DNA from: Dehalobacterium formicoaceticum
GTDB lineage: Bacteria; Bacillota; Dehalobacteriia; Dehalobacteriales; Dehalobacteriaceae
Direction: 5' to 3'
DNA: 64,000 nucleotides
Assembly: GCF_002224645.1 (NCBI RefSeq)
Contig: NZ_CP022121.1
Location: forward strand, 1,370,501-1,434,500
Part shown: positions 1,413 through 35,947 of the stretch, piece after piece
Position numbering within the stretch: the stretch's first letter is position 1
Layout of the letters: each line of letters starts with the position of its first letter
Notes under the pieces: generated by a model
Told to the model about the DNA's origin: nothing
The model's database searches: none
What the model saw: only the letters and a program-made list of their open reading frames with translations
Position numbers and translations under genes: made by a program

Positions 1413-1413
1413 A

Positions 1414-2223: not shown

Positions 2224-3180
2224 ATGGTTATGAACGCAAAATATGCTTTCTTGTTTCAGGGAGTGGGCACCAGCTACCGAGATTATTTACATCTTTTGGA
2301 TCAAGATCAAAAGGAAGAATTGCAGCAGTATTCTATGATCACCAAGAAAGAGTTGGATCTGGATTTATGGGGATATTTATTTGATGCCAAATCTACAGGT
2401 TATGATCCGCTGTTTTGCGATTGGATCTCTCTTTACACCATTGACCAGATAGTCTATCATACTTATCTTCAGATGGGGCTCTGCCCGGATATCTTTCTCG
2501 GATACAGCATGGGATTGATTACTGCGATGGTGTGCGGGGAGGCTCTTTCATATGCTCAAGGGCTGCATATGCTGTTAAGTATATATGAGTACCCGCGTCA
2601 TGCGTTCCGCCGCGATGAGACGATGGCTGCCATCATTGGGATGACCTGTAAAGATGTAGATATAATCATTGGAGAATACAATTTGGCTGACGATGTGGAA
2701 ATCGCTATTGAAAATAATGAACATTGTATTGTGGTCTCCGGTCTGAAAAAAGGCGTATATAAGGTGATGAACCATGCTGAAGAAAAGGGTGCTTTGAAGG
2801 TGAAAGAAGTAAATTCCCCCTATGCTTTTCATTCCACCCATGCCGCACAGGGCATAGAACATTTTGCTAATTTTGTGGAAAAAGTTCCTGTTGGCCACTG
2901 TGTCGTTCCTATCATGTCCTGCTTCGATCAGGAAATCATTTGGCAGTCAGATGATCTCAAACATCAACTGGTGAGAAATATGACAGGACGGATGGATTGG
3001 ACATCATCCATTACGAAAATTGGAGCATCGGGTATTCAAAATTTTGTGGAAGTGAGCCTTAACGATTCTTTAATCAAATTTTCCAGGACGATTGACAGGA
3101 ACTGTCAGTTCATGACTTATAAAAAAATTCTCCAATCAGGATGCCGACTTGAAAACATGAATGTCGCTGTGGCTTTATAA
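2224..3180 (+). CDS. Divergent FabD-type acyltransferase / acyl hydrolase
   Basis: A 318-residue protein of the malonyl-CoA:ACP transacylase family. The nucleophile elbow is GYSMG (Ser95) and the catalytic His is in YAFHS (His203). Two residues used for malonyl handling are changed relative to the FabD at 40805 in this window: the Gln of FPGQGSQ is Val (FQGVG), and the Arg of VRFRG, which binds the free carboxylate, is replaced in the aligned segment LLSIYEY. By family knowledge this argues against malonyl transfer and for transfer of a non-carboxylated acyl group or hydrolysis, as in the acyl hydrolases of trans-AT polyketide systems. First gene of the cluster; RBS GGAGG lies near 2205. The malonyl supply may come from the housekeeping FabD. 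Confidence 0.75.
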   Translation: MVMNAKYAFLFQGVGTSYRDYLHLLDQDQKEELQQYSMITKKELDLDLWGYLFDAKSTGYDPLFCDWISLYTIDQIVYHTYLQMGLCPDIFLGYSMGLITAMVCGEALSYAQGLHMLLSIYEYPRHAFRRDETMAAIIGMTCKDVDIIIGEYNLADDVEIAIENNEHCIVVSGLKKGVYKVMNHAEEKGALKVKEVNSPYAFHSTHAAQGIEHFANFVEKVPVGHCVVPIMSCFDQEIIWQSDDLKHQLVRNMTGRMDWTSSITKIGASGIQNFVEVSLNDSLIKFSRTIDRNCQFMTYKKILQSGCRLENMNVAVAL

Positions 3181-3260
3181 GAATTCGACTTGATTGTCCG
3201 TTAACATTATGAAAATTTTTGTTGCTGGGAAAGGTTAACTTTAGAAGGAGAATGTCTAAC

Positions 3261-4616
3261 ATGAAAATACTTTTTGTCTATCCCAAATTTCGTAAGTATT
3301 TGGAAACGAACCCTAATATCCTAAAAGCCATTGGCGCACCTGTATATGCAGAATATAAAGCCATGCCCTCCTTGGGCATCCCAATCCTGACGGCGCTTAC
3401 TCCTGATGAACATGAATTGCATTTTGCCGACGGTAACTTGGAAGATATCCCTTATGATGAGGATTTTGATCTGGTGGCCATCAATTCCTTTACTCCTCAG
3501 GCCAAATATGCCTATGAAGTGGCAGATAAATTTCGCGCCCGTGGAATTCCGGTAATTTTGGGGGGAATTTTTCCCTCTAATTATCCGGAAGATTGCAGCA
3601 AACATGCGGATGCTGTTTTTGTTGGTGAAGCAGAACTGGGTTGGCATGAAGTCTTGGCTGATGCTCAAAGAGGGCAATTAAAACCCATATACAATGCCGG
3701 TTGCAATTTTGATGTAGAAAAATATGTTATACCTGACCGTCGTTTATTTAAGCATAAAAAGGGCTATGATTGGCGGCCCCTTCTCCTGCAAAATTTTCGA
3801 GGATGCCAGTTTAATTGTGCTTATTGCGCTATTTCCAACACCAACGGAAAAAAGATGCGGATGCGTCCCATCGATAACATCATGCAGGAAATAGAAGAAA
3901 ATATGGATTTGGACGGCATTTATATTGGTGATGATCAGTTTTTGCTCCCGGATCCGGAAATTGAAAAATACTCTCTCGAATTTTTCTCTCGCCTGAAAGA
4001 ATTGAATTACCAGAAAAGTATTCTGCTCAGCGCTTCCCCCTTACTCAACAAAAATCCTAAACTATTACAATTGATTCGGGACTGCGGTGTTAACACCCTT
4101 TATTTTGTCTTTGGGTGGGACCCAGTGGCCATTCGCGCCCTTTCATATAATGATCCTCATGATGCGGAAGAGAGTATTAAGGCCGTTCAGGATGCAGGTT
4201 TTAATATCTTTGCCTCGATCGGGGTGGGACAAGATGCTGATACACCAGAAATTTTCCCTCGTACCATCGACTTTTTAGAACGAAACCGGATCAATCATGC
4301 GGAATTTTGGATCCAAACACCCTTCCCCGGGACACCGGCCTGGCGCAAATACAAAAAAACCGGGAGAATTCTCACAGAAGATTTTGATATGTATAACGGA
4401 GCCCATGTGGTGTATCAGCCCAAGAAAATGTCGGTTCAGGAACTAGAGGACGGTTTCATCTATCTCTGGCAAGAGTTCTTTACCCGCTTTAATTTGCCGC
4501 CGGAAGAAGTGCTTCAATTTTATTCTATGAGCAGCGACTTTAAATCCAAGGTGGGGATTCAGGATCAAAATGATGAGCAAAAGGAAGAGCAGGGTAAACA
4601 GGAGCAGGCAATCTAA
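3261..4616 (+). CDS. B12-binding-domain radical SAM protein (BchE/P-methyltransferase-like class B architecture)
   Basis: A 451-residue protein with an N-terminal Rossmann-like cobalamin-binding region (VILGGIFPSNYPED and FVGEAELG are typical) and a radical SAM core beginning near residue 190 with CQFNCAYC, the CxxxCxxC cluster motif. Start taken at ATG 3261, 10 bases after AAGGAG; an upstream in-frame start has no ribosome site. Such proteins use SAM, a 4Fe-4S cluster and often cobalamin to methylate or rearrange unactivated carbon. No His of the classical base-on B12 motif is apparent. The stop overlaps the start of the oxidoreductase gene (TAATG), which means tight coupling. Substrate unknown. 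Confidence 0.85.
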   Translation: MKILFVYPKFRKYLETNPNILKAIGAPVYAEYKAMPSLGIPILTALTPDEHELHFADGNLEDIPYDEDFDLVAINSFTPQAKYAYEVADKFRARGIPVILGGIFPSNYPEDCSKHADAVFVGEAELGWHEVLADAQRGQLKPIYNAGCNFDVEKYVIPDRRLFKHKKGYDWRPLLLQNFRGCQFNCAYCAISNTNGKKMRMRPIDNIMQEIEENMDLDGIYIGDDQFLLPDPEIEKYSLEFFSRLKELNYQKSILLSASPLLNKNPKLLQLIRDCGVNTLYFVFGWDPVAIRALSYNDPHDAEESIKAVQDAGFNIFASIGVGQDADTPEIFPRTIDFLERNRINHAEFWIQTPFPGTPAWRKYKKTGRILTEDFDMYNGAHVVYQPKKMSVQELEDGFIYLWQEFFTRFNLPPEEVLQFYSMSSDFKSKVGIQDQNDEQKEEQGKQEQAI

Positions 4617-6724
4617 TGGATAGGATCCAGGTAAAAGATAATGCCATTCTCACTATCGATCTAACGGCATCAAAATCATCAAAGGTAGAAATAACGCGGT
4701 CGCAAAGGAAAAATTTTGTAGGCGGCATGGGGATTAATACCCAGATTCTTTATGAATCCGATGCCATGTATCATGATGCTTTATCAGAGAAAAATGTGCT
4801 GATTTTTGGGGTCGGACCTGCCGTAGGAACCGGGCTTCTGGCGGGTAACCGCTGTACGGTGACGGCACGCAGTCCCATCACAGATATGTATGGGGATTCC
4901 AATGTTGGGGGGGATTTCACTGTCAAAATGCGTTCTGTCGGGGTGGACCACCTGGTTTTTACAGGTAAGGCGGAAAAGCCGGTCTATGTGGTTATCAATG
5001 CGGAAGGTGAAGTCAGTATTTTGGACGCCTCCGATCTTTGGGGCATGTGGACAGATCGGGTCACCGACCTTCTAATGGAGCGTCATGGCAAGCATGCGGA
5101 GGTGGCCTGTATCGGTCCTGCCGGAGAAAAGCTTGTACGCTATGCCAGTGTGGTGATGTCCAAATGTCATGTTGCCGGGCGTACGGGCATGGGTTGTGTC
5201 ATGGGATCAAAAAACTTAAAGGCCGTTGTCATTGAGGGCAACAAAAAATGGCAGCCCCCCATGTATGATCGGGAGGAAATCGGCCGGATCCGTAAATTAT
5301 GGCTGGAACAGTGCCGTACTTCCGTTGTGTCCAAAATGGGGGGTATTGAAGGCACTCTCTTCCTTATAGAAACCTATGACAAGGACAAGCATGTTCCGGT
5401 GCGTAACAGCAAGACACCCCACGATGAAAAAATGAAAAATATTTATTCCAATGAGTTTAAATACGGTTACCAGACCAAAAGGAAAGCCTGTTATGCCTGT
5501 CCTGTGGCCTGCGCCAAAGAATATGAAATCAAGGAAGGCAAGTACAAGGGAGACAAAGGGGACCGTATTGATTACGGGACCGTAACCAGCCTGGGGCCTT
5601 GCCTGGGGATTTTTGACTGGGGAGATATTATCCATCTGAAGCTGTTAACGGATTATTTAGGCATGGATACCATTGAAATAGCCGGTGCTATCGGCTTGCT
5701 TATGGAATGTACGGAACGCGGCTTAACAGATGGAACTCCGGCGGAGGAGTTTCCCATCGAATTTGGCGATACGGAGAAGGTAGAGAAATTATTTTACCGC
5801 ATTGTCAACCGGGAAGGGATAGGTGATCTGCTGGCGGAGGGCGCTTATCGGGCAGCTGAGGCGCTGAAAGCACAAGAGTATGTCTTTACTATAAATAAGT
5901 CCACCACCGGCCTTCACTCCAAGGACCGTTTGGCATGGTCTATGGCTTATATGACCTCCACCCGTGGGGGGGACCATTTAAAGGCTTTTGTTTTCTCTGT
6001 ACTAAGCAAAGGATATTTTGCCAGCGTCGTTTCAAAATATATTTTTAAAATGGATGCCAACAAAGCCATTGACCAGCCGGAAAGACAGGGACGCATTGTA
6101 GCCTGGCACGAGAATTACAAATCCATCATCGATGCTTTGGGCATTTGTATTTTTGCCATTCATGGCGTTCCCAACAAAGGACATGCTTTTTTCCATGATT
6201 TTGCCCAAGTGATGAAGGGCTTGTACAACCTGTATTGTACCGATCAAGATATTTATTACGCCGGAGAACGGATTTACCAGCTGCAAAATGCCTTTAATAT
6301 CCGCTGCGGGCTGACCTTAAAGAATTATCAATGGCCGGTGCGTAAACAAGACACGGACATTGACCCGGAGTATGTTCTGGAAACCACGATCAAAACCCGG
6401 GATGAAGCAGGGATGCTGCCGGAATATTTCACTTTCCGAGGTTTGAACCCGGAGGGCAAACCAACGTCAGCAAGATTTCAGGAATTAGGATTAGATCCCC
6501 GGGACAGGGAGGGCGAACCAAGCATTTTGGTGCAGGATGACCATGTCACCTCCATCCCGGAATTGTTTCAAATGGTTGGCTTAAATGCTAATTTAAGCAA
6601 GATTGACCGCCTAAAGGGAGAAATGATTTCATGGTTATTGTGCCGGTTGCTGGAAAAGCGGGATAAGCGTGACGAAAAAGCTTATTTCAAAAAGAAAAAA
6701 GCACAGGCGCTTGACATAATGTGA
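4616..6724 (+). CDS. Tungsten-dependent aldehyde:ferredoxin oxidoreductase family protein
   Basis: A 702-residue member of the AOR family, which binds a bis-tungstopterin and one 4Fe-4S cluster. The N-terminal domain has FVGGMGINTQIL and GPAVGTGLLAGNRC. The cluster ligands are CYACPVAC (Cys292, 295, 299) and a distant Cys511 in DALGICIF, the usual spacing. GRTGMGCVMGSKNLKAVV matches the pterin region. The family interconverts aldehydes and carboxylates with ferredoxin; relatives such as BamB act on aromatic thioesters, so the reaction here is open. It is translationally coupled to the radical SAM gene before it. Being inside a biosynthetic cluster is unusual for AOR. A tungstate importer and two MoeA genes lie at 31.3-36.8 kb. 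Confidence 0.9.
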   Translation: MDRIQVKDNAILTIDLTASKSSKVEITRSQRKNFVGGMGINTQILYESDAMYHDALSEKNVLIFGVGPAVGTGLLAGNRCTVTARSPITDMYGDSNVGGDFTVKMRSVGVDHLVFTGKAEKPVYVVINAEGEVSILDASDLWGMWTDRVTDLLMERHGKHAEVACIGPAGEKLVRYASVVMSKCHVAGRTGMGCVMGSKNLKAVVIEGNKKWQPPMYDREEIGRIRKLWLEQCRTSVVSKMGGIEGTLFLIETYDKDKHVPVRNSKTPHDEKMKNIYSNEFKYGYQTKRKACYACPVACAKEYEIKEGKYKGDKGDRIDYGTVTSLGPCLGIFDWGDIIHLKLLTDYLGMDTIEIAGAIGLLMECTERGLTDGTPAEEFPIEFGDTEKVEKLFYRIVNREGIGDLLAEGAYRAAEALKAQEYVFTINKSTTGLHSKDRLAWSMAYMTSTRGGDHLKAFVFSVLSKGYFASVVSKYIFKMDANKAIDQPERQGRIVAWHENYKSIIDALGICIFAIHGVPNKGHAFFHDFAQVMKGLYNLYCTDQDIYYAGERIYQLQNAFNIRCGLTLKNYQWPVRKQDTDIDPEYVLETTIKTRDEAGMLPEYFTFRGLNPEGKPTSARFQELGLDPRDREGEPSILVQDDHVTSIPELFQMVGLNANLSKIDRLKGEMISWLLCRLLEKRDKRDEKAYFKKKKAQALDIM

Positions 6725-6953: not shown

Positions 6954-7259
6954 ATGGCTAATTTAACACCGGAAATTCGGCAAGAACTGCGGGAAATGAT
7001 TTATGAATTTTTCGCTGATGAATGTGATGTGACAGTTGAAGAATTATCTGACGATAAGAACATCATTGATGATTTGGATGGAGACTCTCTTTTGTTTGTT
7101 GAGTTGATTGAACTGATGAAGAAGAAATATCAACTTAATGTGCAGCTCCAAACCATCGGCAAATATTTATTAAAAAATCCTGCTGAAACCGTGGGACAGG
7201 TTATCGAAACCGCTTACCTGGTTTTTCAGTTTGAAAATGACATTGTGGAGGCCAGTTAA
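6954..7259 (+). CDS. Discrete acyl carrier protein
   Basis: A 101-residue carrier protein. The phosphopantetheine site is Ser45 in LDGDSLLFVEL, a variant of the usual DSLD. It is longer than the housekeeping ACP at 42552 (78 residues), with a longer helix and loop after the serine. AGGAGG lies 8 bases before the start. It is the only carrier protein of the cluster and there is no modular PKS, so intermediates are probably carried on this free ACP. Activation by the Sfp-type transferase at 18539 is inferred. The AT-like, crotonase, KAS III-like and FabF-like genes around it are the likely partners. Confidence 0.85.
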   Translation: MANLTPEIRQELREMIYEFFADECDVTVEELSDDKNIIDDLDGDSLLFVELIELMKKKYQLNVQLQTIGKYLLKNPAETVGQVIETAYLVFQFENDIVEAS

Positions 7260-7268: not shown

Positions 7269-8033
7269 ATGGAAAAGGAAAAAAGCCAAGGATTCGTTTC
7301 CTTCGAAACTGTGGATCAGATTGGAACTATGACCATCCAAAATGGTAAGCAAAATAAAATTCCCCAGCCTGATTTTTTGGATGGGCAAGTACTGCTAAAT
7401 TGGATGGAAAGAGATGAATTGAAAGGAATCATTATAACCGGGGCAGGCCGATATTTTTCCAATGGTGCCGATCTGAATATGATACGCTCCCACCGTGAAA
7501 ATTCGTCAAGCTTTTGTAACAGCTTACAAAAAGGTAAATCTCTGTTGAACACCATTGAAAGGCTGCCCTTGGTGACCGTGGCTGCCATCAGTGGGATTTG
7601 TTTTGGCGGAGGCTGGGAAATTGCTTTAAGCTGCCAGTTCAGAATTGCCACGGAAAGTGCAATTTTCGCCTTTCCCGAGTCTGGATTGGGGATCATGCCG
7701 GGCATGGACGGCACCTTCCGGCTGCCGAGAAAAATTGGAAAAAGCAAAGCCCTGGAAATCATTCTTTCGGGCCGCACGATTGGAGCCGAGGAAGCTTTGG
7801 AATTGGGGTTAATTGATAGAATTGTACCCAACAAGGCGCATGTCCCGGCAGCCAGAGCATTTATTGATGAAATGACCCGGGATCGATCTCTGCGGCAGAT
7901 CAGAAGCATCGTCCAAGCCGTCAACAACACCCTTTTCCTGGCAGCAGAAGATGCCCAACGGGAGGAAAGCATCCTGTTTTTGGATCTGGTGCAAAATGAA
8001 TTGCTTCCCGAAGAAGCACGGGAGCAGAGCTGA
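7269..8033 (+). CDS. Enoyl-CoA hydratase/isomerase (crotonase) family protein 1
   Basis: A 254-residue crotonase. The first oxyanion segment is FSNGADLNMI and the second GICFGGGWEIAL; both acidic positions used by hydratases are present, Glu117 (GGGWE) and Glu137 (FPESGLGIMPG). It therefore can be an active hydratase or dehydratase, unlike many PKS decarboxylating relatives that lose one Glu. Ten bases separate it from the ACP gene. In beta-branching PKS cassettes a pair of crotonases dehydrates and decarboxylates ACP-bound glutaryl-type intermediates; three crotonases beside a free ACP recall that, but no clear HMG-CoA synthase homologue is present. Confidence 0.85.
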   Translation: MEKEKSQGFVSFETVDQIGTMTIQNGKQNKIPQPDFLDGQVLLNWMERDELKGIIITGAGRYFSNGADLNMIRSHRENSSSFCNSLQKGKSLLNTIERLPLVTVAAISGICFGGGWEIALSCQFRIATESAIFAFPESGLGIMPGMDGTFRLPRKIGKSKALEIILSGRTIGAEEALELGLIDRIVPNKAHVPAARAFIDEMTRDRSLRQIRSIVQAVNNTLFLAAEDAQREESILFLDLVQNELLPEEAREQS

Positions 8034-8068
8034 GAGAGAATCAATAAAGCAAGGTGAGGAAGAGATCA

Positions 8069-8583
8069 ATGTTAAAGATGCTAAAAATTTTTTTTTCCGG
8101 AGAGATACCGCCTATATCTTTTCCCACCTCCGTTTTTATTTCTAAGGAGGAGGCTGGGTTAGAAGATTTCGTACAACAAATCGCTGATACCGCAAAGTTC
8201 CGTCGCTGGTTTAATTTCTTTCCTTTTGTCTGGCTGACCTTTGACAATCCGCGTTTTGATGTAGGCAGCAGCGGGATGTTTTATTTTTCCTTTCCCCCTT
8301 CAGATATAAAATGACTTGTGTGGAAGTGGACCCAGGGAAATACTATCGTGCTGAATTCTCCGGTTTGATGACAGGTCATGTGACAACTCGCTTCATTCCT
8401 CAAAAAGACGGCATCCTTATGGATCATCCCTTGACGGTGACGGCAGTCAATCGCTGGGTTTACCTCTATTATTGGTTGTTTCTGCGACCGCCTCACCTTC
8501 CTTTTATGGCTTGGCGCTACAGCATGCTCAGAAAAAATTTAATTAAGGAAAGGGAAATAAAAAAACTAAAAAGCAAGGATTGA
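8069..8583 (+). pseudogene. SRPBCC/cyclase-like protein, split by an apparent -1 frameshift
   Basis: Two reading frames, 8069-8314 and the frame containing 8311-8583, look like one gene. The first starts at ATG 8069, with GGTGAGGA upstream. Switching frame in the C run 8294-8298 joins FYFSFPP to FRYKMTCVEVDPGKYYRAEF and gives a continuous 171-residue protein whose strand pattern and C-terminal helix (MAWRYSMLRKNLI) fit the SRPBCC (START-like) fold of polyketide cyclases and lipid-binding proteins. As written the first part ends at TGA 8312, overlapping ATG 8311. One C missing from the run explains the break; a real mutation, sequencing error or two coupled genes are all possible. A second SRPBCC gene is at 23453. 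Confidence 0.6.
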
Positions 8584-8589: not shown

Positions 8590-8991
8590 ATGAATCATGA
8601 ATATCTGTTTGAAGTCCAGGGCTATGAGCTTGACTCCTTTGGTCATGTTAACAACGCCGTTTATCTCAATTATTTAGAGGCAGCCCGCTGGAAATTTGTC
8701 CAGGAAACCAAGTGGCTGGATTATTTAGAAAAAGAAAAGATGTTTACCGCTGTGATTGAAACTAATATCCGTTATCTGCGAGAAATGAAACTGTTTGATC
8801 AGGGAATTGTAGCAAGTCTTTGGCAATATGATGGGAATTACTTAATTGTTCGGCAAAATATTTATTTGGTGCCCACTCGGAAAAAGATGGTGCGTGCCCA
8901 GGTGAAAATGGTTTTAGTGTCGGAAGAAAGGATTATCCATGAACTTCCCTCTTTCATGAAGGATGAAATGGATCAGAGGGCGACCCGATGA
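8590..8991 (+). CDS. Hotdog-fold acyl thioesterase (YbgC/FadM/4HBT family)
   Basis: A 133-residue hotdog protein. The motif ELDSFGHVNNAVYLNYLEAARW near residues 14-35 is the signature of the YbgC / FadM / 4-hydroxybenzoyl-CoA thioesterase group, with the active-site Asp in DSFGHVNN. Such enzymes hydrolyse acyl-CoA or acyl-ACP thioesters. It follows the SRPBCC gene by six bases and its stop overlaps the start of the next gene (ATGA). In this cluster it could release the chain as a free acid, which would be a possible substrate for the aldehyde:ferredoxin oxidoreductase; this is inference. Confidence 0.85.
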   Translation: MNHEYLFEVQGYELDSFGHVNNAVYLNYLEAARWKFVQETKWLDYLEKEKMFTAVIETNIRYLREMKLFDQGIVASLWQYDGNYLIVRQNIYLVPTRKKMVRAQVKMVLVSEERIIHELPSFMKDEMDQRATR

Positions 8992-9695
8992 ACGAACATG
9001 ATCCTACACTAAATTTTGCACCCGATTTTTTTGTTGAAGATCGCCTGGCCTTTCTATTTCTGGGGAAAGATTCCGGACTTAAGGCGATTATCCCGGAAAT
9101 TGACCAAGGGCTTATAAATGGGGAGATCTTAGCCTGTGCTCTTGTGACACGAGGAAAAGAAGATCCTTGTTCTATATCTCCCATGATGAAAAGAATCTTA
9201 TTAAACTGGCTCTGGGAACTCACCATTCCCACCGTTTTTGTGGCCACTAAGGGCCATTATGAGGAAAACTGGGTGGAATTGATGATGTGCTGTGATATAC
9301 GTCTGGGAAAAAAAGAGTTAACTATGCAATTTCCTTGGGAAGTTTCCCCGCCTGCCTTTGATCTTGAGGAGCGTTGTCAAGTGCTGATGGGTGTGGAGGG
9401 AAGAAAATCAGACTATCACCAACTTACCCAAGGAATTTTTGGAGGGGATGAACTTTATGAAATGGGTTTTTTTAATCATCTCTTAGGTCAGGAAGACCCG
9501 CTGCCGGAAGTAAAGCTCTTTTTCCGTAAAATTATTGGTGATAAGAGCCGGGATCAGATTAAAGCCATCGTGGACTGCTTTCATTATTATAAAAAATTAG
9601 GGCTTAAGACCTATCGGGATCTGCTTCTGGAGGAGGAGGCAAGACAGTTTTGTCGATTGGCGGCTCGGGAATTTTGGCATAAGGATAGGGGATAA
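8988..9695 (+). CDS. Degenerate crotonase-like protein
   Basis: A 235-residue protein that follows the crotonase layout weakly: IPTVFVATKGHYEENWVELMMCCDIRLG aligns with the kPvIAavnG..GGG.Elal.cDiria block, but the oxyanion-hole glycines are replaced by Glu-Glu-Asn. An acidic residue remains in FPWEVSPP. The N-terminal oxyanion segment is not recognisable. It starts inside the end of the thioesterase gene (ATGA) and is followed two bases later by another crotonase, so it may be a structural partner or a divergent enzyme such as a dehydratase. Assignment to the fold is from this pattern only. Confidence 0.6.
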   Translation: MNEHDPTLNFAPDFFVEDRLAFLFLGKDSGLKAIIPEIDQGLINGEILACALVTRGKEDPCSISPMMKRILLNWLWELTIPTVFVATKGHYEENWVELMMCCDIRLGKKELTMQFPWEVSPPAFDLEERCQVLMGVEGRKSDYHQLTQGIFGGDELYEMGFFNHLLGQEDPLPEVKLFFRKIIGDKSRDQIKAIVDCFHYYKKLGLKTYRDLLLEEEARQFCRLAAREFWHKDRG

Positions 9696-9697: not shown

Positions 9698-10423
9698 ATG
9701 AAATTCCAGAAAATTTCTTATGAGGAAAAAGGCCATATTGGCTATATTATCATCAATGATCCGCCGGCAAACATGATGACTGCTGACTTTTTCAGAGAAT
9801 TAATCCTTTTGGTGCGCTGTTATGTTATCGGATCTCCAAAGCAGGGCATTATCATTTCCGGCCGGGGCAGGCATTTTAGTTCCGGAGCCGATGTGGAACA
9901 GTTAAAAGAGATTGTCGGCACCCAAAGCCTAGGTAACAGTGATGGGTCAGTGACTGCTTATCCCGTATGGTATCTGGAAAATCGCAACACCTTCAATTAT
10001 TTTTGTAATTTGGACATTCCGGTGATCAGTGCTATTAACGGGTTATGTATCGGTTCCGGATTTGAGCTGGCCTTATGCAGCCATATCCGCATTTGCGGAC
10101 AAAACGGTATCTTAGGGTTACCGGAGTCCACCTTTGGTTTTCTGCCGGGTGTCACCGGGACTTTACGTTACACGGAGCTCATGGGATTGGGCAGAGGGAT
10201 GGAACTGGTCTTGAGCGGAGCTACATTTTCAGCGGAAGAAGGCTTAAGCTTAGGATTGGTGCATGGTGTAGTTGATAAGAAAGAAACTTTAACCTATTGC
10301 CAAGGACTGATGGATGCCATTCTCCAGTCCGGCGAAAAATACGAGAAAAAGAATACAGGGCAATACTTGGAAGCGTTTAACAAGGTTTATTACCAAAATC
10401 GAAATCAAGCAAAAGGACTGTGA
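9698..10423 (+). CDS. Enoyl-CoA hydratase/isomerase (crotonase) family protein 2
   Basis: A 241-residue crotonase with FSSGADVEQL (first oxyanion segment), NGLCIGSGFELAL and LPESTFGFLPG; both acidic positions, Glu123 and Glu143, are kept. It is adjacent to the degenerate crotonase (gap two bases) and four bases from the KAS III-like gene, so the run thioesterase - crotonase-like - crotonase - KAS III-like is one tightly packed unit. Hydration/dehydration or decarboxylation of ACP- or CoA-bound intermediates is expected from the family; the specific step is unknown. Confidence 0.85.
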   Translation: MKFQKISYEEKGHIGYIIINDPPANMMTADFFRELILLVRCYVIGSPKQGIIISGRGRHFSSGADVEQLKEIVGTQSLGNSDGSVTAYPVWYLENRNTFNYFCNLDIPVISAINGLCIGSGFELALCSHIRICGQNGILGLPESTFGFLPGVTGTLRYTELMGLGRGMELVLSGATFSAEEGLSLGLVHGVVDKKETLTYCQGLMDAILQSGEKYEKKNTGQYLEAFNKVYYQNRNQAKGL

Positions 10424-10426: not shown

Positions 10427-11542
10427 ATGGAAAAGTACGTAAAACTTCTGGCGACGAGCTCTTATTTACCCGGTCAGCCAATCAAATTTGATGATATTAA
10501 CGAATATTTGGGTCCTTTTACTAATGCGCCCAAGAAGATTAAGCAATGGACGGAAAGAATCCAGCCGATCATGAAAGAAATGTTAGGCATTGAATATTGC
10601 TATTATGCTTTTGACAACAAAACGAGAACATTTCCTGAAGACAACCTGACTTTATCGGTAAAAGCTGCGGAAAAAGCCTTGGCGGAAGCAGGTTTGGAGG
10701 CGAAGGATATAGATCTCTTGATTTACGGTGGCGCTTATTCTCATCAGTTGCCTCCTCTTTCCACCCGGATCCAGGAAGCCTTAGGAATCGAACGTTGTGG
10801 GGAATTTCATATTCATTCCAACTGCACTTCTGTTTATAAAGGCCTGAAATTAGCCCATTCCCTCTTAAAAACGGGAGAATATAAAAACGCCTTAGTGGTT
10901 TCCTCCATTGTCGTCAGCTCCTGTTTTATTCCTGAATTTTATAACCAGGAGAAGATTACCAAGGAAGACATTTTTTTGCGCTGGTATCTCTGTGACGGAG
11001 CAGGTGCCTTTGTGCTATCGGCAGAGGATGAAAAAGATCATGGCTTTTATCTGGAAAATACCTATGTGGAATCATCCGGGGGCAAAAAAATGTCCGCCAT
11101 GTGCAATGATTATCCTTATCTTTGGAACAATCCCCTGTTGGATTACGAGAATTGTGCCCACCATATCCGTCAGCTCTATTTAAATGAATTAAAGGACCAC
11201 GCTTTAGAAGAAAATGGGAAAACCATTTTTTACAATGCTTTAAAAAGAATGCTGGACAGCCAGCACATCGATCTATCCTCTTTGCGTTATTTTGTTGTCA
11301 ATATGCCCTCCCGGGCCGTGCGGGATTATATTACCCAAGAATGTACGGAGTTCTTCATTGATTTAAATAAGTTTTACTCTGCCATCGAAGATGTTGGATA
11401 TGCCGGTCCGCCGGCAGCTATTATTTCCATGGATATCCTTTTAAAAAATCATACATTTCAAAACAATGATTTAATTTTTAGCTTCGTCATGGAGGTAAGT
11501 AAATATATGCAAGGCGGGTTTACCCTGCGTTATATTGAGTAA
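10427..11542 (+). CDS. KAS III-like (thiolase-fold) protein lacking canonical His and Asn
   Basis: A 371-residue thiolase-fold protein. The nucleophile is Cys133 in HSNCTSVYKGL, and GDG-type glycine stretches (CDGAGAFVLS) are present. Aligning with the FabH at 38850, the PHQAN His falls on Met293 (VVNMPSRAVR) and the catalytic Asn of GNMSS falls on Tyr325 (VGYAGPP). Without His and Asn, decarboxylative condensation as in FabH is unlikely; related proteins with altered triads transfer acyl groups or use other nucleophiles. It may act as priming enzyme or acyltransferase for the cluster ACP. An HMG-CoA synthase role in beta-branching was considered, but the family signature is missing. Confidence 0.75.
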   Translation: MEKYVKLLATSSYLPGQPIKFDDINEYLGPFTNAPKKIKQWTERIQPIMKEMLGIEYCYYAFDNKTRTFPEDNLTLSVKAAEKALAEAGLEAKDIDLLIYGGAYSHQLPPLSTRIQEALGIERCGEFHIHSNCTSVYKGLKLAHSLLKTGEYKNALVVSSIVVSSCFIPEFYNQEKITKEDIFLRWYLCDGAGAFVLSAEDEKDHGFYLENTYVESSGGKKMSAMCNDYPYLWNNPLLDYENCAHHIRQLYLNELKDHALEENGKTIFYNALKRMLDSQHIDLSSLRYFVVNMPSRAVRDYITQECTEFFIDLNKFYSAIEDVGYAGPPAAIISMDILLKNHTFQNNDLIFSFVMEVSKYMQGGFTLRYIE

Positions 11543-11609
11543 TCAAGCTATTGAGTATTGGGAACCAGAAAAAGACTTGATGAAAGAGAAAAAAGAGGAG
11601 ACATACAAA

Positions 11610-13034
11610 ATGAAGATTCTATTGATTAATCCTCCCATCCCTTATAAATATCGCATGTTTGACTATGCTGATGAGGAAGGTAAAAAGGCGATTTCCCGGA
11701 GAATTTTAGTGGGACCTCCCTTGGGCTTAAATGATATTGCCGGCATGCTGCGGGAAGAAGATGTGATCATTATTGATCAAAAGACGGAAATGGATCAGTA
11801 TCCGGATTATGATCCTCTTGAGGCGGCGGAGGAGGAAATCTACGCTTTCCAACCAGATATTGTGGGTATTACCTGCCTGACAGCTCAATACAATTATGTA
11901 CGGGAATTATTGGCCGTGATCCGCAAAATTAACAAGAATATTTTAACGGTAGTGGGCGGGGTGTACCCCACCTTATGCCCTCAGGAGTTTGCCGGGACAG
12001 GGGCGGATATTCTGGCCATTGGTATCGGAAAACTCAGTTTCTCTCAGATTGTACAGGAATATAAGGAAAAGGGTCGGGATGGAGATTATTCTCATATCTA
12101 TGGTTTAGCTCTCAGCAAAGGAAACGGTTTTGTCTTTACCAAATCCTTAGGTGAAATGAGCTATCAGGAATTCCAGGAACAATGCATGCTGGATGATTTT
12201 CTGCCTAATCGGGATTTAACGGAAAGATACGAATATATTTTTCCATTCCTGAATAAGAAAATTCAATACTTAAGCACGTCCCACGGCTGCACCCACCGCT
12301 GTAATTTTTGTACCCTTTGGCAACTGACAGACGGCCGCTATTTCTTCCGCAAAGTAGAATCGATGATCCGGGAATTAAAGGGGATGGATCAATATCCCAT
12401 CATCCGGTTTTGCGATGCTAATACCTTTGGCAACGTAAAAGAAGCCCAATACTTATTTGAAAGAATCATTGAGGAAGGCTTGCACCGTAATCATATGTAT
12501 TTTGCCGATTTACGCACGGATACTGTGCTCAAACATCCGGAGCTGATCCAGCTGGCCGCCAAGGCCGGATTAAAAGTGGCAGTGTGCGGAGTGGAGGCTA
12601 CCGATGATGAAGAGTTAGAGCGATACGAAAAGAAAAACAATGTGGAAACCATTAAAGAAGCCTACAAAATTATGAATGAAGCCGGTATGTTTGTTAACGG
12701 AAACTATATCATCCGCCCCGACTATACAGAAAAGGATTTTGAACGGGTGGGTCGTTTTATCGAAGATAATCCCATTTTCCATGCAGGACTGACGATTCTG
12801 ACACCTTTTCCCGGTACCCAGCAATGGGAGGAACTAAAAAGCCAGGTAGTAATTCATGATCTGGATTACTACAACCTCACCAATGCCGTGTTAAAGACTG
12901 CTCTGCCGGAAAAAGAATTCTATCACCGCTTGACGGAGCTTTTTAAAACCAGCGGACGAGCCACCGGGAAATTTTTCTCCCTTTATGGTAAGGAAGAATA
13001 TAAAAAGTTTGGTCTGCAGGTTGCCGGTATGTAA
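11610..13034 (+). CDS. Second B12-binding-domain radical SAM protein
   Basis: A 474-residue protein. The N-terminal part starts KILLINPP and contains PDIVGITCLTAQYNY and VVGGVYPTLCPQEF, typical of the cobalamin-binding region of BchE-like radical SAM proteins. The radical SAM motif is CTHRCNFC near residue 230, followed by FCDANTFGN and GLKVAVCGVEA. Start chosen at ATG 11610, after AGAGGAG; the longer in-frame version begins inside the KAS III-like gene and has no ribosome site. It differs clearly from the first radical SAM protein (3261). Methylation, cyclisation or rearrangement of the acyl chain is possible; substrate unknown. Confidence 0.85.
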   Translation: MKILLINPPIPYKYRMFDYADEEGKKAISRRILVGPPLGLNDIAGMLREEDVIIIDQKTEMDQYPDYDPLEAAEEEIYAFQPDIVGITCLTAQYNYVRELLAVIRKINKNILTVVGGVYPTLCPQEFAGTGADILAIGIGKLSFSQIVQEYKEKGRDGDYSHIYGLALSKGNGFVFTKSLGEMSYQEFQEQCMLDDFLPNRDLTERYEYIFPFLNKKIQYLSTSHGCTHRCNFCTLWQLTDGRYFFRKVESMIRELKGMDQYPIIRFCDANTFGNVKEAQYLFERIIEEGLHRNHMYFADLRTDTVLKHPELIQLAAKAGLKVAVCGVEATDDEELERYEKKNNVETIKEAYKIMNEAGMFVNGNYIIRPDYTEKDFERVGRFIEDNPIFHAGLTILTPFPGTQQWEELKSQVVIHDLDYYNLTNAVLKTALPEKEFYHRLTELFKTSGRATGKFFSLYGKEEYKKFGLQVAGM

Positions 13035-13047
13035 AGGAGGCATCACC

Positions 13048-14211
13048 ATGAATATTGGTATTATCGGCAAAGGAAAGATGGGCAGGAGCATTTTTGATTA
13101 CCTGCTGCAATTTGATCATCAGCTGGTTTTGGTCTGTCATAAAAAGGAGGATGTTATACCTGTGGCAGCATCCATTGAAAAGCAAATTCAAAAGAGATGG
13201 AAACGCGGTTTCCTGACAGATGAAGAATATGAAAGAAAAATCAGATCCTATAAGGTGGCGGATTGTCTGGCAGCGGTTAAAAAATGCTCACTGGTGATAG
13301 AGTCGGTCTCTGAAGAGCCATCATTGAAGCAAAACATCTTTCAAGGTCTGGAAGGAATCGTGGCTGAAGATTGTATATTAGCCACCAATACCTCTTCCAT
13401 TCCTCTCCAGATGGTTTTTGCCAAATGTCTGAACAAAGAGCGGTGTCTGGGCATGCATTTCTTCTTTCCAATACAGGTGATGCGTACCGTTGAAATCAAT
13501 ACTACCTTAGCTACTGCTCCTCAGTACATAAAAATTGTTCACAAGTTGCTGGAGCAGGGTGATAAGACTCCCCTCCTATTAGAAGACAAAGCCAATATGA
13601 TGCTGACTAAATTATTTACGATTTTGATTACCAAGATTTACAACATCTATGAGGAACGGGTCCTGCCCATAGATGAAATTGATGCTGTCTTAAAAGCCAA
13701 TCTTTTCACCTTTGGTTTATTCGAAATTATTGATTCTACCGGGATTCCCATCATCTTGACATGCATCGACAATTTTGTGGACGAGCGTTATCAGGAATTA
13801 TATACACCTTTTTATAACAAGGGGGTCAAGCTGCTTCAGGCAGGATATCCCGGGGGGATAGGCCATGAAGGAATAGCCTCCTATGAAAGAGAGCATCCTG
13901 AGCCTTTTCAGGAATTGAGTGCAGAAAAGCGTTTGGATTATCAGGAAAATATGGTTTTGCGTTTGCAGGGCATGATTACCAATGAATTGGCTTTTCTGCT
14001 CAGTCAGCAAGATGTGGGGAAAGACAGTTTGCTCACCGCCGTGCAGGAAGTGCTGGGTTTAGGAGAAGATCCCCGCCATATTTTGGAGACCTTGGGGGTA
14101 GAACCTATTGAGAATTGCCTCTGGAATGAATATGCTCTAACTCGTGATCCGATCTATCTGCCCTTAGATTTTAGTTTCCTCAGAAAAATCCCGATGGAAA
14201 CGATAGCATAA
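13048..14211 (+). CDS. 3-hydroxyacyl-CoA dehydrogenase family protein
   Basis: A 387-residue NAD-binding protein with GIIGKGKMG at the N-terminus, the SEEPSLKQ and TNTSSIP segments and the catalytic pair His137 (GMHFFFP) and Glu149, spaced 12 as in the family. A helical 3HCDH-type C-terminal domain follows. It oxidises or reduces the beta-hydroxy/keto group of acyl thioesters. Start chosen at ATG 13048 with AAAGGAGG 7 bases upstream; a longer in-frame version lies inside the preceding gene. With the crotonases and ketosynthase it completes a discrete elongation cycle (keto reduction, dehydration), apart from an enoyl reductase, which is not found in the cluster. Confidence 0.88.
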   Translation: MNIGIIGKGKMGRSIFDYLLQFDHQLVLVCHKKEDVIPVAASIEKQIQKRWKRGFLTDEEYERKIRSYKVADCLAAVKKCSLVIESVSEEPSLKQNIFQGLEGIVAEDCILATNTSSIPLQMVFAKCLNKERCLGMHFFFPIQVMRTVEINTTLATAPQYIKIVHKLLEQGDKTPLLLEDKANMMLTKLFTILITKIYNIYEERVLPIDEIDAVLKANLFTFGLFEIIDSTGIPIILTCIDNFVDERYQELYTPFYNKGVKLLQAGYPGGIGHEGIASYEREHPEPFQELSAEKRLDYQENMVLRLQGMITNELAFLLSQQDVGKDSLLTAVQEVLGLGEDPRHILETLGVEPIENCLWNEYALTRDPIYLPLDFSFLRKIPMETIA

Positions 14212-14232: not shown

Positions 14233-15465
14233 ATGGAAAATGAACGTAAAACCGTGATAACCGGGATGGGTATGGTAACTCCCTTAGGAGGGAATGTGGA
14301 CACCACCTGGCAAAACCTTTTAGCCGGCCGCTCCGGCGCCAGGAAAATATCACTTTTCGATGCCAATGATTATGAAACTCAAATCGCCTGTGAAGTCAGT
14401 CCGGAATTTGAAGCTCAGGCGGCAAAAATTATTGCCAAAAGGGATCGCAAGAAAATGACCCGGACCACCCGCATGGCCATGTTAGCTGCTCAGGAAGCCA
14501 TTGTGATGAGCGGAATTGATTTTGATCGTTTGAATCGGCAGCGGGTTGCTGTGATTATGGGCGTGATTACCTCTTCCTACAATGAAATGGAGCGGGAGGA
14601 GTCTGATGCTCAGATCATCATCAAATCCATGCCCAATGCACCCAGTGCCTGGATATCCCTGCATTATGGATTGGAGGGCCCAAATTTTAATGTATCTACC
14701 GCCTGCGCCTCTTCCGCTTATGCTTTGGGACTGGGGCATCAAATGATTAAATCCGGTTTGGCGGATGTGGTTATTGCCGGGGGTGCAGATTCTCATATTG
14801 CCCCTGAATGCATCAAGGGCTTTAATCAAATCCTGGCGATGTCGGTGCGTAACGAGACTCCAGAGACGGCCAGCCGACCTTTCTCCCTTTCTCGAGACGG
14901 GTTTGTCATGGGAGAAGGAGCCGGGATTCTGGTGCTGGAATCCGAAGCCGGTGCCCGGGATCGAAATGCTCCTATTTATGGGGAACTGGCCGGCTACGCG
15001 CTGACCAGTGAAGCAATAGACATGACGGCGCCCAAGGAAAATGGTGCAGGGATGGCTGTGACCATGGAGAGAGCTCTAGCCGATGCCGGGGCCAGTAAGG
15101 CAGAGATCGACTATATTAATGCCCATGGCACTGCTACTTACTTAAATGACAAATATGAGACGATGGGGATTAAATCTTGCTTTGGCAGCCGAGGGAAGGA
15201 GTTGGCAATTTCTTCATCAAAATCCATGCTGGGGCATACTTTAGGCGCAGCTGGTGCCATTGAAGGAATTATCACCTTGCTGAGTATTTATCACAGTCGG
15301 GTGACACCTACCATTAATTATCAGGATGCGGATCCGGAACTGGATTTGGACTATGTGCCTAATCAGGCTAGGGATATGGGGATTCGCGCCGCCCTTTCCA
15401 ACTCTTTTGGTTTCGGCGGCCATAACGCCTCTCTTGTCTTTAAAAAATATGGGATAACGGGGTAA
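14233..15465 (+). CDS. FabF-type 3-oxoacyl-ACP synthase of the cluster
   Basis: A 410-residue beta-ketoacyl-ACP synthase II-like enzyme with a complete triad: Cys158 (STACASSAY), His298 (NAHGTATYLND) and His335 (KSMLGHTLGAAGA). GFGGHNASLVF closes the protein. It is a second FabF next to the housekeeping one at 43954 and differs from it throughout, so it is probably dedicated to the cluster ACP. AAAGGAG lies 7 bases before the start. It would carry out decarboxylative chain extension with malonyl-ACP, which makes the missing malonyl-binding residues of the cluster acyltransferase notable. Confidence 0.92.
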   Translation: MENERKTVITGMGMVTPLGGNVDTTWQNLLAGRSGARKISLFDANDYETQIACEVSPEFEAQAAKIIAKRDRKKMTRTTRMAMLAAQEAIVMSGIDFDRLNRQRVAVIMGVITSSYNEMEREESDAQIIIKSMPNAPSAWISLHYGLEGPNFNVSTACASSAYALGLGHQMIKSGLADVVIAGGADSHIAPECIKGFNQILAMSVRNETPETASRPFSLSRDGFVMGEGAGILVLESEAGARDRNAPIYGELAGYALTSEAIDMTAPKENGAGMAVTMERALADAGASKAEIDYINAHGTATYLNDKYETMGIKSCFGSRGKELAISSSKSMLGHTLGAAGAIEGIITLLSIYHSRVTPTINYQDADPELDLDYVPNQARDMGIRAALSNSFGFGGHNASLVFKKYGITG

Positions 15466-15472: not shown

Positions 15473-16498
15473 ATGAAACAATATTTAATCACCGGGGGAG
15501 CCGGTTTTATCGGAGCAAATTTTATTCGTTACCTTTATCAGCAAGAAAAAGGCGCCAAGGTGCGTGTTTTGGACAAACTCACTTACTCGGGAAATATGGA
15601 TAATCTGGCGGAATTCCAGGGAAAAGAAGGTTTTGAATTTATCCAGGGTGATATTTCTGATGATAGGGTAGTCAAAGCGACTATGAAGGATGTTCAGGTG
15701 GTCGTAAATTTTGCCGCCGAGGTGGCGGTGGATCGCTCCATCCAAGACCAGCAATCCTTTTTGAAAACTGATGTCTTAGGGGTTCATGTGCTTTTAGAAA
15801 ATGCCCTGGCCCAAAAGGAGCACTTGGAACGTTTTGTCCAAATCTCTACAGATGAGGTTTATGGTCAAATTCTGGAAGGGAGCTTCCGTGAAACCTCAGA
15901 ATTAAAACCCCGCAATCCCTATTCTGCCTCTAAGACAGGGGGGGACCGGCTCGCTTACAGTTATTTTGCTACATATCAGCTGCCGGTGATCATTACCCGG
16001 GCCTCCAATACTTATGGCCCCTGGGCCTATCCGGAAAAGGTGATTCCCCTTTTTATCACCAATATCCTTGAGGGGCTACAGGTGCCGGTTTTCGGTGAGG
16101 GTAGTCAGATCAGAGATTGGCTCTATGTGGAAGATCATTGCTCTGCCATTTACCATTTGATCCAAAAAGGACAAAACGGCGAGGTTTATAATGTAGGATC
16201 ACATCAGGAATACACCAATTTATCCTTGACTAAGATGATTTTAGACCTTATGAGCCGTGATGAATCATCCATTCGTTTTGTCGCGGACCGGCCGGGACAT
16301 GATTTCCGGTACAGCTTAGACACCGCCAAATTGCAGGGTACCGGCTGGAGCCCCAAATATGATTTACCCACCGGATTGAAAAAGACGGTGGACTGGTATC
16401 AAAACCATGAGGATTATTGGCAGAAGCTAAAAGCAAAGCTGGATCCGAGATTTGCTCAAGGATATTGGGGTGAAAAAGAAAAAAGTGAGGTGTCATAA
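15473..16498 (+). CDS. rmlB: dTDP-glucose 4,6-dehydratase
   Basis: A 341-residue short-chain dehydrogenase-type enzyme with GGAGFIGANF at the N-terminus, STDEVYG in the active site and the Tyr-Lys pair in NPYSASKTGGDRL. ASNTYGPW and RDWLYVEDH are typical of RmlB. It converts dTDP-glucose to dTDP-4-keto-6-deoxyglucose, the entry to deoxysugars. It is only eight bases after the ketosynthase and its stop overlaps the start of rmlA (TAATG). No rmlC is nearby; the epimerase/reductase at 22472 could reduce the 4-keto group. Confidence 0.93.
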   Translation: MKQYLITGGAGFIGANFIRYLYQQEKGAKVRVLDKLTYSGNMDNLAEFQGKEGFEFIQGDISDDRVVKATMKDVQVVVNFAAEVAVDRSIQDQQSFLKTDVLGVHVLLENALAQKEHLERFVQISTDEVYGQILEGSFRETSELKPRNPYSASKTGGDRLAYSYFATYQLPVIITRASNTYGPWAYPEKVIPLFITNILEGLQVPVFGEGSQIRDWLYVEDHCSAIYHLIQKGQNGEVYNVGSHQEYTNLSLTKMILDLMSRDESSIRFVADRPGHDFRYSLDTAKLQGTGWSPKYDLPTGLKKTVDWYQNHEDYWQKLKAKLDPRFAQGYWGEKEKSEVS

Positions 16499-17255
16499 TG
16501 CGGGGGGTTGTTTTGGCTGGCGGTCATGGTAAAAGGCTGCAGCCTTTAACGCTGGTTACTAATAAACATTTATTGCCGGTTTATAAAAAACCGATGATTT
16601 ATTATCCCATAGAGACACTGAGAAACGCCGGCATCAATGAGATTCTCATCGTAACATCAGGGGAATATTTAGGACATTTTTATCGGCTGCTGCAAACGGG
16701 GCGATCATTAGGTGTCAAGCTGCATTATGAAATTCAGGAGGGCAGCGACGGCACGGGGGCAGCTCTTCTTTGTGCCGAGGAATTTACTCGAAAAGATGAT
16801 TTCATGGTAATCCTGGGGGATAACATTGTTTACGAAAATGTCCGGAGTTTTATTGATGATTTTCAAGAGGAGAAGAAGGAATTTAAAGCAAAAATATTGA
16901 TCACCAAGGTAGATGATCCTAAGAAATACGGAGTAGTAGAGTTTGATGAAAAAAGGGTGACTCGGCTGGTAGAAAAACCGGCAGTGCCTTTTTCCAACTA
17001 CGTTAATACTGGATTATGGATCTTTCAGCCTGAAGCCTTCAATTACCTGAAGGAATTAAAAACAAGCCCCCGGGGGAATATGAAACCACCGATGTTCTAC
17101 ATTCCTATGCAGAACAGGGACTGCTGACTTATGGTATTTTGAAATCTAAATGGACTGATGCCGGTACTTTTGAGCAGCTTTTTAATGCCACTATGCTGGT
17201 TAAGGAATTAGAGGATGAAATAACCAAAAATGAAGTGAAAGCTAAGGGCGCCTGA
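16498..17255 (+). pseudogene. rmlA: Glucose-1-phosphate thymidylyltransferase, interrupted by a frameshift
   Basis: The frame from 16498 gives GVVLAGGHGKRLQPLT, LGDNIVYEN and VEKPAVPFSNYVNTGLW, clear RmlA features, but after TSPRG it runs into unrelated residues and stops at 17127. In another frame the expected end continues from 17076 as EYETTDVLHSYAEQGLL and WTDAGTFEQL to the stop at 17253-17255. Adding one G to the G run 17072-17076 restores one 252-residue protein. The break removes the conserved C-terminal part, so the gene as written is probably inactive unless the base is a sequencing error. The enzyme activates glucose-1-phosphate to dTDP-glucose for RmlB. Confidence 0.85.
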
Positions 17256-17278: not shown

Positions 17279-18514
17279 ATGAAAAAGATTTTATTTATTA
17301 GTTTTCCTGTTTATGGACACGTCAATCCTCAGATGAATTTTTGTAAGGAATTAGCGCAAAAAGATGTCCATCTGATCTATTACACCAATGAAAAATATTT
17401 CTCCAAATTTGCCGACACAGATGAGATTGAGCTGCGCAAATATCCGGATAGCTTTGTAAATTATTATGATAAATTGGCCGAAGACCAAACCCTTGCTCCC
17501 GGATTTATGTCTTTGCTCTATGTATTCTATACCTTAACAGAAAATGTTATCCCTTTTATCATGGAAGAAGTAAAAAAGGAAAAACCGGACTTGATTATTT
17601 GCGATAGCTTGGCTATTTGGGGAAAGGTTGCAGCCCGCTATTATAAGGTTCCCATGGCGTTCTTTTTTTGCGGACTGATGGGGGATTCCACAGCCATCAG
17701 TAAGTCGCCCTCCTTTAAGATGAGTCTGGTAAAGTCAATTATTTTTGATTTTCCATATGTCATCAAACTAAATAACTGTATCAAACGTATCCAAAAACAG
17801 TATGGTAAGCATGTGACGGATAGTATGCAGAATATCATGTCGCCTCAGGGACTTTTTTCTATAGTCATGACGTCCAGGGAATTTCATCCCGGGGGGGATG
17901 AGTATCCACCTAATATAAAATTCATTGGACCGGCTCACCGGGAGGATCATGAAATTCCAGAGACAAAAGATACTATTCTTGTCAGTATCGGAACCATTGC
18001 TATCAGCGATACCTTTTGGGATATTTGCATTGAAGCAGCCAAGGGACTGGGTTATAAAGTAGTGATTTCCTTTGGGGGAAACACAGCCAACCATGTTAGT
18101 GAACAGAGTCTATCTGATCAGGTGGAAGTTTATGACAATCTCAGTTTAGATGATTATCGCAACGTGCTTAAGCGATCAGTACTTTTTATCTCCCACGGAG
18201 GCTTCAACAGCATCAGCGACTCTATTCTCTACAGAACCCCATTATTGATCTGTCCTATCACCGCGGAACAGAACAGCAACGGCAAGATGATTGAAGAATA
18301 TGGCTGTGGGAAGCTCTATCCGGAAAAAAAGGTGCAGGCACCCAGATTGCGGGAGGAAATTATCAAACTGATTGGCAACAAAGAAATGGATGAAAATCTG
18401 GAAAAATATCGACAATCCTTTTTTAATGCCTTAGGTTACAAAAAAGTAGTTGAGGAGTTAAATAAAGAGTTTAATTTATATGAAAAAAAGGATGATCACT
18501 CAGTTCCAGCTTGA
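17279..18514 (+). CDS. Macrolide-type (GT1) glycosyltransferase
   Basis: A 411-residue GT1 family enzyme: N-terminal FPVYGHVNPQMNF as in macrolide glycosyltransferases, VSIGTIAISD in the second Rossmann domain and the donor-binding block SHGGFNSISDSI with PITAEQNSNG near residue 320. Such enzymes move a sugar from a nucleotide donor, here probably a dTDP-deoxysugar given the rml genes, to a hydrophobic aglycone or lipid. No signal peptide. GGAGATGGGGAG precedes the start. It is the only glycosyltransferase in the cluster, so the product probably carries one kind of sugar. Confidence 0.88.
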   Translation: MKKILFISFPVYGHVNPQMNFCKELAQKDVHLIYYTNEKYFSKFADTDEIELRKYPDSFVNYYDKLAEDQTLAPGFMSLLYVFYTLTENVIPFIMEEVKKEKPDLIICDSLAIWGKVAARYYKVPMAFFFCGLMGDSTAISKSPSFKMSLVKSIIFDFPYVIKLNNCIKRIQKQYGKHVTDSMQNIMSPQGLFSIVMTSREFHPGGDEYPPNIKFIGPAHREDHEIPETKDTILVSIGTIAISDTFWDICIEAAKGLGYKVVISFGGNTANHVSEQSLSDQVEVYDNLSLDDYRNVLKRSVLFISHGGFNSISDSILYRTPLLICPITAEQNSNGKMIEEYGCGKLYPEKKVQAPRLREEIIKLIGNKEMDENLEKYRQSFFNALGYKKVVEELNKEFNLYEKKDDHSVPA

Positions 18515-21814: not shown

Positions 21815-21834
21815 GATTGAAAGGAGGCAAACCA

Positions 21835-22470: not shown

Positions 22471-22471
22471 A

Positions 22472-31213: not shown

Positions 31214-31323
31214 AAATTCCAAGACTCCCACTTCTATAAGTGGGAGCTCCTATTTTCACTTCAGGTGGGGTAGATTCCCCATCAGAAGCCCCGATGTTCA
31301 GCTTTAGCTGAACGAGTTCACTT
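31214..31323. repeat. 110-bp multi-hairpin repeat, copy 1
   Basis: Near-identical to 49079-49187 (about six changes). It contains a perfect 9-bp stem CTCCCACTT at 31225 with AAGTGGGAG at 31238, a GGGG/CCCC hairpin in the middle and a perfect 7-bp stem GTTCAGC at 31296 with GCTGAAC at 31307. It overlaps the last codons and stop of the minus-strand moeA-type gene. The hairpin arrangement resembles ends of IS200/IS605-type elements, so it may be a non-autonomous relic; an intergenic repeat family with a terminator role is the alternative. Confidence 0.85.
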
Positions 31324-35239: not shown

Positions 35240-35240
35240 C

Positions 35241-35933: not shown

Positions 35934-35947
35934 TGGTATACACCTTC

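Follow-up and report, generated by a model that had tools for sequence, protein, structure and literature searches.

The window analysed here, a stretch of 64,000 nucleotides of the Dehalobacterium formicoaceticum chromosome (NZ_CP022121.1, positions 1,370,501 to 1,434,500), encodes an aldehyde:ferredoxin oxidoreductase (AOR) of the AOR/WOR family at 4616-6724. Comparison of protein sequences and gene neighbourhoods strongly supports the recruitment of this AOR into an acyl carrier protein (ACP)-dependent biosynthetic cluster shared by seven genomes. With slightly better than even confidence, the enzyme is regarded as a dedicated, probably W-dependent tailoring oxidoreductase of an undescribed glyco-polyketide or lipid pathway, in which it would transfer two electrons at low potential to or from a substrate other than an aldehyde. 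This suggests that the AOR family, known mainly from aldehyde breakdown, may also help to build natural products.

Cluster conservation and AOR phylogeny

An alignment-based scan for the AOR across GTDB genomes found relatives. The nearest GTDB AORs were L077 (57% identity, from a Clostridia metagenome-assembled genome) and L078 (42%, labelled Proteobacteria); thereafter identity was ~34%. Both were surrounded by homologues of the window cluster genes, and none of the other AOR loci of the scan was close to the ACP/KASIII set. In G331 and G332, the genomes of L077 and L078, the remaining core was located on second contigs that resumed within the KASIII gene. An AOR search among relatives of G331 yielded G761, with the complete cluster on one contig. 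A KASIII search performed without the AOR in 291 genomes yielded three further clusters (G873, G914 and G884), all with an AOR in the same locus (3/3). AORs of the cluster clade were present in 2 of the 197 genomes around G331. Since the cluster genomes are partly related, no formal probability is claimed.

Common to all seven clusters are genes for the AOR, ACP, crotonases ECH1 and ECH3, thioesterase, KASIII-like protein, B12 radical SAM protein rSAM2, 3-hydroxyacyl dehydrogenase (HBD) and FabF-type ketosynthase (KS). The malonyl/acyl transferase (AT), START-fold protein, glycosyltransferase and Sfp-type transferase are present in 6/7. G332 has a separate AT-like open reading frame (ORF; L166 928-2160), and contig ends may explain the genes missing from its cluster. 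Catalytic residues of AT, ACP, KS, ECH1, ECH3 and rSAM2 are kept across clusters. A flavodoxin gene lies within the G761, G873, G331 and G884 clusters. The shared core holds no recognisable gene for an aldehyde-consuming enzyme such as an alcohol dehydrogenase or an aminotransferase. Within the host's own phylum, none of the AOR neighbourhoods contained this cluster, and a KASIII search of 299 genomes returned ordinary FabH only. A plasmid search with the AOR returned distant AORs only (23-32% identity).

Trees were calculated from 161 AORs by a quick method, with sampling biased to near relatives and PfAOR and YdhV as the only references (without BamB, FOR and GAPOR). The seven cluster AORs were monophyletic (SH-aLRT 100%). 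PfAOR was placed far from them and grouped with AORs of other genomes, including separate paralogues from G873 and G884. A sister pair (L079, 10001-11899, and G511, L201 6618-8438) shares 33-39% identity with the cluster clade and also has Gly in place of Glu313; no ACP, KS or KASIII neighbours of these two AORs were found. The original prediction had placed the AOR in a biosynthetic cluster, and the core shared by seven genomes bears this out. A distinct clade always beside such clusters, proposed there as support, was likewise obtained: 7/7 clade members sit in a cluster, and the AOR is present in 7/7 genomes that carry the cluster KASIII. The opposite outcome, an AOR inside a catabolic clade whose members keep these neighbours in unrelated species, was not obtained.

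Active site and predicted structure

For active site analysis, cluster AORs were compared with PfAOR. The four [4Fe-4S] cysteines (C292, C295, C299, C511) and the equivalents of Thr243 and His448 are kept, the latter two being Thr247, a Thr/Ser position across the clade, and His454 in the window. The Glu313 equivalent is Gly in 7/7 cluster AORs (Gly321 in the window), and that of Glu311 is mostly Asp. Tyr427 and its DPR motif are changed, and neither Tyr nor His is conserved at the position among the seven AORs (the local alignment shifts by 1-2 residues between runs). The Glu is retained in AOR, FOR, GOR, GAPOR and WOR5 and in every characterised aldehyde-oxidising clade (PMC12096430), and for CaAFOR Glu313 is described as fully conserved and required in proton exchange (PMC12727526). 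BamB and YdhV are without the second-shell set and have a Cys metal ligand (PMC12096430). A counterpart of the YdhV NTC-motif Cys ligand was not present in the cluster clade when aligned to YdhV (not to the BamB sequence itself). Because Glu313 and Tyr427 are lost and there is no Cys ligand, neither the usual acid-to-aldehyde chemistry nor membership in the BamB group is supported, and the latter assignment was rejected.

The AlphaFold2 model of the window AOR has the AOR fold (pLDDT 85.8). Its closest solved structure is 1AOR (TM 0.91 on 1AOR length), and BamB was last among the AOR-family structures in the fold search. Residues 662-701 of the model form a terminal helix (~40 residues) that lies past the C-terminus of PfAOR. 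The cluster AORs may represent a third AOR/WOR active-site type, with neither Glu313 nor a Cys ligand, serving a new tungsten-dependent step in glycosylated polyketide or lipid biosynthesis of strict anaerobes, in at least some lineages with adjoining genes of its own for tungstate uptake and cofactor insertion; this proposal is tentative, and we rate it just short of an even chance.

AOR gene and immediate surroundings

Dehalobacterium formicoaceticum DMC is a strict anaerobe that grows on dichloromethane and has a chromosome of 3,766,545 bp (CP022121; PMC5597755). The AOR gene (4616..6724, plus strand) is an intact ORF with ATG start, 702 aa and zero internal stops. AFOR_N (1e-65, 221.7 bits) and AFOR_C (1.2e-83, 281.8 bits) domains were detected, with PF02730 and PF01314 both well clear of the curated cut-off, and the gene is the sole PF01314 match in the whole 3,766,545-bp genome. 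Besides C292/C295/C299/C511, T247, H454 and G321, the protein has a C-terminal extension of ~75 aa.

It had been predicted that the AOR is coupled by TAATG to a B12 radical SAM gene and followed by the ACP. ORF, domains and overlap were confirmed: the stop codon of rSAM1 (TAA, 4614-4616) and the AOR start codon (ATG, 4616-4618) share exactly one base. The radical SAM link needs one correction. rSAM1 (3219..4616, plus strand; B12-binding and Radical_SAM domains) occurs in the cluster of this genome only, and no homologue was found beside the AOR in the six related clusters, so the coupling is local and not ancestral; the conserved radical SAM gene is that at 11535-13034. The ACP gene starts 229 bases after the AOR stop. 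The gap (window 6722-6953) contains a perfect 13-bp hairpin right past the AOR stop, with strong folding (z -4.35) and no U-tract, and co-transcription of AOR and ACP is therefore not certain. A search for Rfam riboswitches upstream of AOR or ACP gave zero matches at the gathering threshold. Two weak matches near AOR/ACP at E-value level belonged to snoRNA families and were dismissed as chance.

Cluster genes in the window

All cluster genes listed here between 2224 and 31196 are on the plus strand. The AT (2224..3180; FabD-like, GYSMG) is encoded directly 5' of the AOR in G761, G873, G331 and G884. The AOR is followed by the ACP (6954..7259; PP-binding, DSL serine kept in 7/7), ECH1 (7269..8033; both catalytic Glu kept in 7/7) and an SRPBCC/START-fold protein (8054..8583; two overlapping frames in the window). 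The START-fold gene is a single intact ORF in G761, G873, G331, G914 and G884 and is split at window 8054-8583; as the DMC genome is PacBio-only (PMC5597755), the split is either real or an assembly error. Searches with the START-fold protein returned general helix-grip matches only and no specific aromatase or cyclase. The thioesterase named in the original prediction is encoded at 8590..8991 (hot-dog type, Pfam 4HBT). A degenerate crotonase-like protein without Pfam match (8988..9695) has a similar protein in G761, G873, G331 and G332, and in G914 and G884 a diverged ORF occupies its position. It is followed by ECH3 (9698..10423; both catalytic Glu kept).

The KASIII-like protein (10427..11542) is nearest to the StlD/DarB subfamily, with 102.2 bits against the curated StlD/DarB family (cut-off 450). 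In alignment with StlD, Cys133 is kept, His is replaced by Asn and Asn by Tyr, and the catalytic His and Asn are absent in every cluster member readable there. Since the His and Asn of FabH/StlD are missing, the protein is probably not a decarboxylating ketosynthase; it is possibly a non-decarboxylating cyclase or acyltransferase. An HMG-CoA-synthase beta-branching cassette, considered because of the KASIII plus crotonase layout, was rejected since the KASIII-like protein is nearer to StlD/DarB and without catalytic His.

The core radical SAM protein rSAM2 (11535..13034; BchE/HpnR-like, CxxxCxxC conserved) is followed by HBD (12985..14211) and the FabF-type KS (14233..15465; Cys-His-His intact). 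RmlB- and RmlA-like nucleotide-sugar genes (15473..17127) encode proteins with 70% and 74% identity to those of G914. Genes for a GT28/UGT-like glycosyltransferase (17279..18514) and the Sfp-type phosphopantetheinyl transferase (18539..19243) follow. A PIG-L-like deacetylase and an NAD-epimerase (21817..23353) share 58% and 42% identity with G914 proteins. A P-loop protein (23948..24541; weakly MobB-like, below Pfam cut-off) has homologues in the G761, G873, G331 and G884 clusters, and a condensation-domain-like acyltransferase (29853..31196) has homologues in G761, G873 and G331.

Further genes were noted around the clusters. Two flavodoxin-fold/FMN-reductase-like genes at window 741-1974 are divergent from the cluster, and similar genes lie next to AT-AOR in G884 (L217 9043-10250). 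The host's apparent primary fatty-acid genes (plsX, fabH, fabK, fabD, fabG and fabF types, by reading) are located near the cluster at window 37266-45198. In G914, agr-like genes (AgrB-type protein, sensor kinase, response regulator) flank the cluster on both sides (L215 1284-4131 and L228 3127-6141), which suggests quorum-type control. The G914 cluster also contains an indolepyruvate ferredoxin oxidoreductase (L214 12467-14868; iorA model 706 bits), which could supply an aryl-acetyl starter and reduced ferredoxin.

Metal supply genes

On the minus strand, the window encodes two MoeA-type molybdopterin metallotransferases (31304..34512) and a putative tungstate-type ABC transporter TupC-TupB-TupA (34529..36838). 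An adjacent moeA pair (53% and 43% identity) and a similar tup block (TupA 51%) also flank the G914 cluster, where a moaA-tupABC-moeA-moeA-moaC-MOSC/mogA block adjoins the AT end. The window TupA scored 248.5 bits with its equivalog model (cut-off 400), which was the only NCBIfam match of the binding protein, and TupB 152.9 bits (cut-off 320). A MobB-like gene occurs in the G761, G331, G873 and G884 clusters, accompanied in G761 and G331 by a MOSC/MoCF gene. The cluster AOR probably carries a tungsten bis-pyranopterin cofactor, for which the nearby tupABC and moeA genes are only suggestive.

Proposed pathway and alternative explanations

Sequence data show the clade, its tie to the cluster, the residue changes and the neighbouring tungstate/molybdopterin genes in the window and in G914, whereas metal, direction, substrate and product are inferred in the pathway proposed here. 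Its product would be a glycosylated polyketide or lipid made on the ACP in strict anaerobes. Judging by the protein families, an iterative type II set (AT, ACP, FabF-type KS, HBD and crotonases) would build the chain, the KASIII-like and START-fold proteins would probably aid its folding or cyclisation, and rSAM2 would modify it by radical chemistry. The thioesterase would free the product, and the glycosyltransferase would attach the sugar. Less certainly, the AOR, probably with a tungsten centre bound by two pyranopterins and with one [4Fe-4S] cluster, would carry out a two-electron reduction at low potential. Its target would be a group of unsaturated, aromatic or keto type, either on an ACP intermediate or on the released aglycone, with no exchange between acid and aldehyde. 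Ferredoxin or the cluster flavodoxin would be the electron partner, and His454, Tyr320 and Thr247 might stand in for the Glu313 proton relay.

If the thioesterase instead freed a fatty or polyketide acid, low-potential ferredoxin could drive its reduction to the aldehyde by the AOR, in the way that CaAFOR reduces acetate. This route, raised in the original prediction, is considered unlikely. Thioesterase and AOR do occur together in 7/7 clusters, AFORs are able to reduce acids in vivo provided that the aldehyde is drawn off (PMC12727526), low-potential ferredoxin is present in acetogens, and Thr247 and His454 are retained; however, Gly replaces Glu313 in 7/7, Tyr427 is lost and an aldehyde-consuming step was not recognised in the shared core, so that normal AOR chemistry is not supported. 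An oxidative direction, with electrons passing from an intermediate to ferredoxin or flavodoxin during O2-free aromatisation of a cyclic dione or a water-dependent oxidation, appears quite unlikely. The cyclic diones of StlD/DarB, the nearest relatives of the KASIII-like protein, need oxidation to resorcinols, and O2 is unusable by an anaerobe. A DarA-like aromatase was not recognised in the clusters, and START-fold protein and flavodoxin are found there. Yet the KASIII-like protein is without the StlD/FabH His and Asn and scores far under the StlD/DarB cut-off (102 of 450 bits), so that a DarB-type dione is not established, and the very low potentials favoured by W centres also speak against oxidation.

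Dearomatisation of the BamB type, also named in the original prediction, would have the AOR reduce a ring made by the pathway, as a variant of class II benzoyl-CoA reductase. Ring reduction is conceivable as a kind of reaction, the aldehyde second-shell residues are also lost in BamB and YdhV, and crotonases and HBD are similar to benzoyl-CoA pathway enzymes. The enzyme itself is not a BamB: the Glu313 region has no Cys ligand where YdhV has one, among nine PDB sequence relatives BamB scores lowest (146 bits vs 263 for PfAOR) and it is also last of the family in the fold search, and bamC-I-like genes were not recognised next to the AOR among the window ORFs. We regard this variant as very improbable. 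It is scarcely credible that an ordinary aldehyde-detoxifying AOR neighbours the cluster by chance. Anaerobes commonly have AORs, and the majority of those characterised are catabolic (PMC13328260), but one AOR clade accompanies the same cluster in seven genomes, G873 and G884 hold separate AORs of the PfAOR clade, and the active site differs from the aldehyde type.

Several observations weigh against a dedicated W-dependent tailoring AOR. The core is on two contigs in G331 and G332, with breaks at or near the KASIII gene. The thioesterase found in 7/7 clusters is what an acid-reduction model would want. Glu is absent at the Glu313 column in 35/161 sampled AORs, including other uncharacterised clades, which makes the cluster type one among several unexplored variants. 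Gly is also present in the sister pair outside clusters, so the loss of Glu313 probably predates recruitment and does not alone define the reaction. Besides the AOR and the moeA pair, the D. formicoaceticum genome encodes two more molybdopterin enzymes and one more MoeA, so the tup/moe supply genes may be shared. Tungsten rather than molybdenum in the cluster AOR is assumed.

In the literature, 92 AOR/WOR clades are described; most have no assigned role, and those characterised act mainly in catabolism or detoxification (PMC13328260). The literature was searched for an AOR in a biosynthetic cluster, and nothing relevant was found. A clade fixed in a biosynthetic cluster provides a specific, testable role for one AOR/WOR clade. 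If true, this would be, within the literature searched, the first case in which comparative genomics connects a W-type enzyme with a secondary-metabolite or specialised-lipid pathway. It would also hint at a still unexplored class of compounds from strict anaerobes and at low-potential chemistry beyond the reach of aerobic pathways.

Comparison with known systems

With AOR sensu stricto (PfAOR, 1AOR; CaAFOR, 9G7J), the cluster AOR shares Pfam domains, the four Fe-S Cys, Thr243/His448 and fold. As in the Class I layout, no small subunit was recognised adjoining it. It differs by its identity of 29-34%, the change of Glu313 to Gly, the altered Tyr427/DPR, the C-terminal extension, the separate clade and the biosynthetic-cluster setting. 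The BamB/YdhV clade is likewise without the aldehyde-type second-shell residues; the cluster AOR, in contrast, has no Cys metal ligand and no recognised partner subunits, and its similarity to this clade is the lowest among solved members. WOR5/ASOR of Pyrococcus furiosus is a precedent for altered second-shell residues combined with a new substrate class, although WOR5 retains the Glu and comes with a polyferredoxin subunit, whereas the cluster AOR has lost the Glu and has no such adjacent subunit. StlD/DarB dialkylresorcinol clusters resemble the window cluster in the KASIII, which is nearest to StlD/DarB, and in the presence of ACP and phosphopantetheinyl transferase. They differ from it in that the window KASIII is missing His and Asn, a DarA-like aromatase was not recognised, and HBD and crotonases are present.

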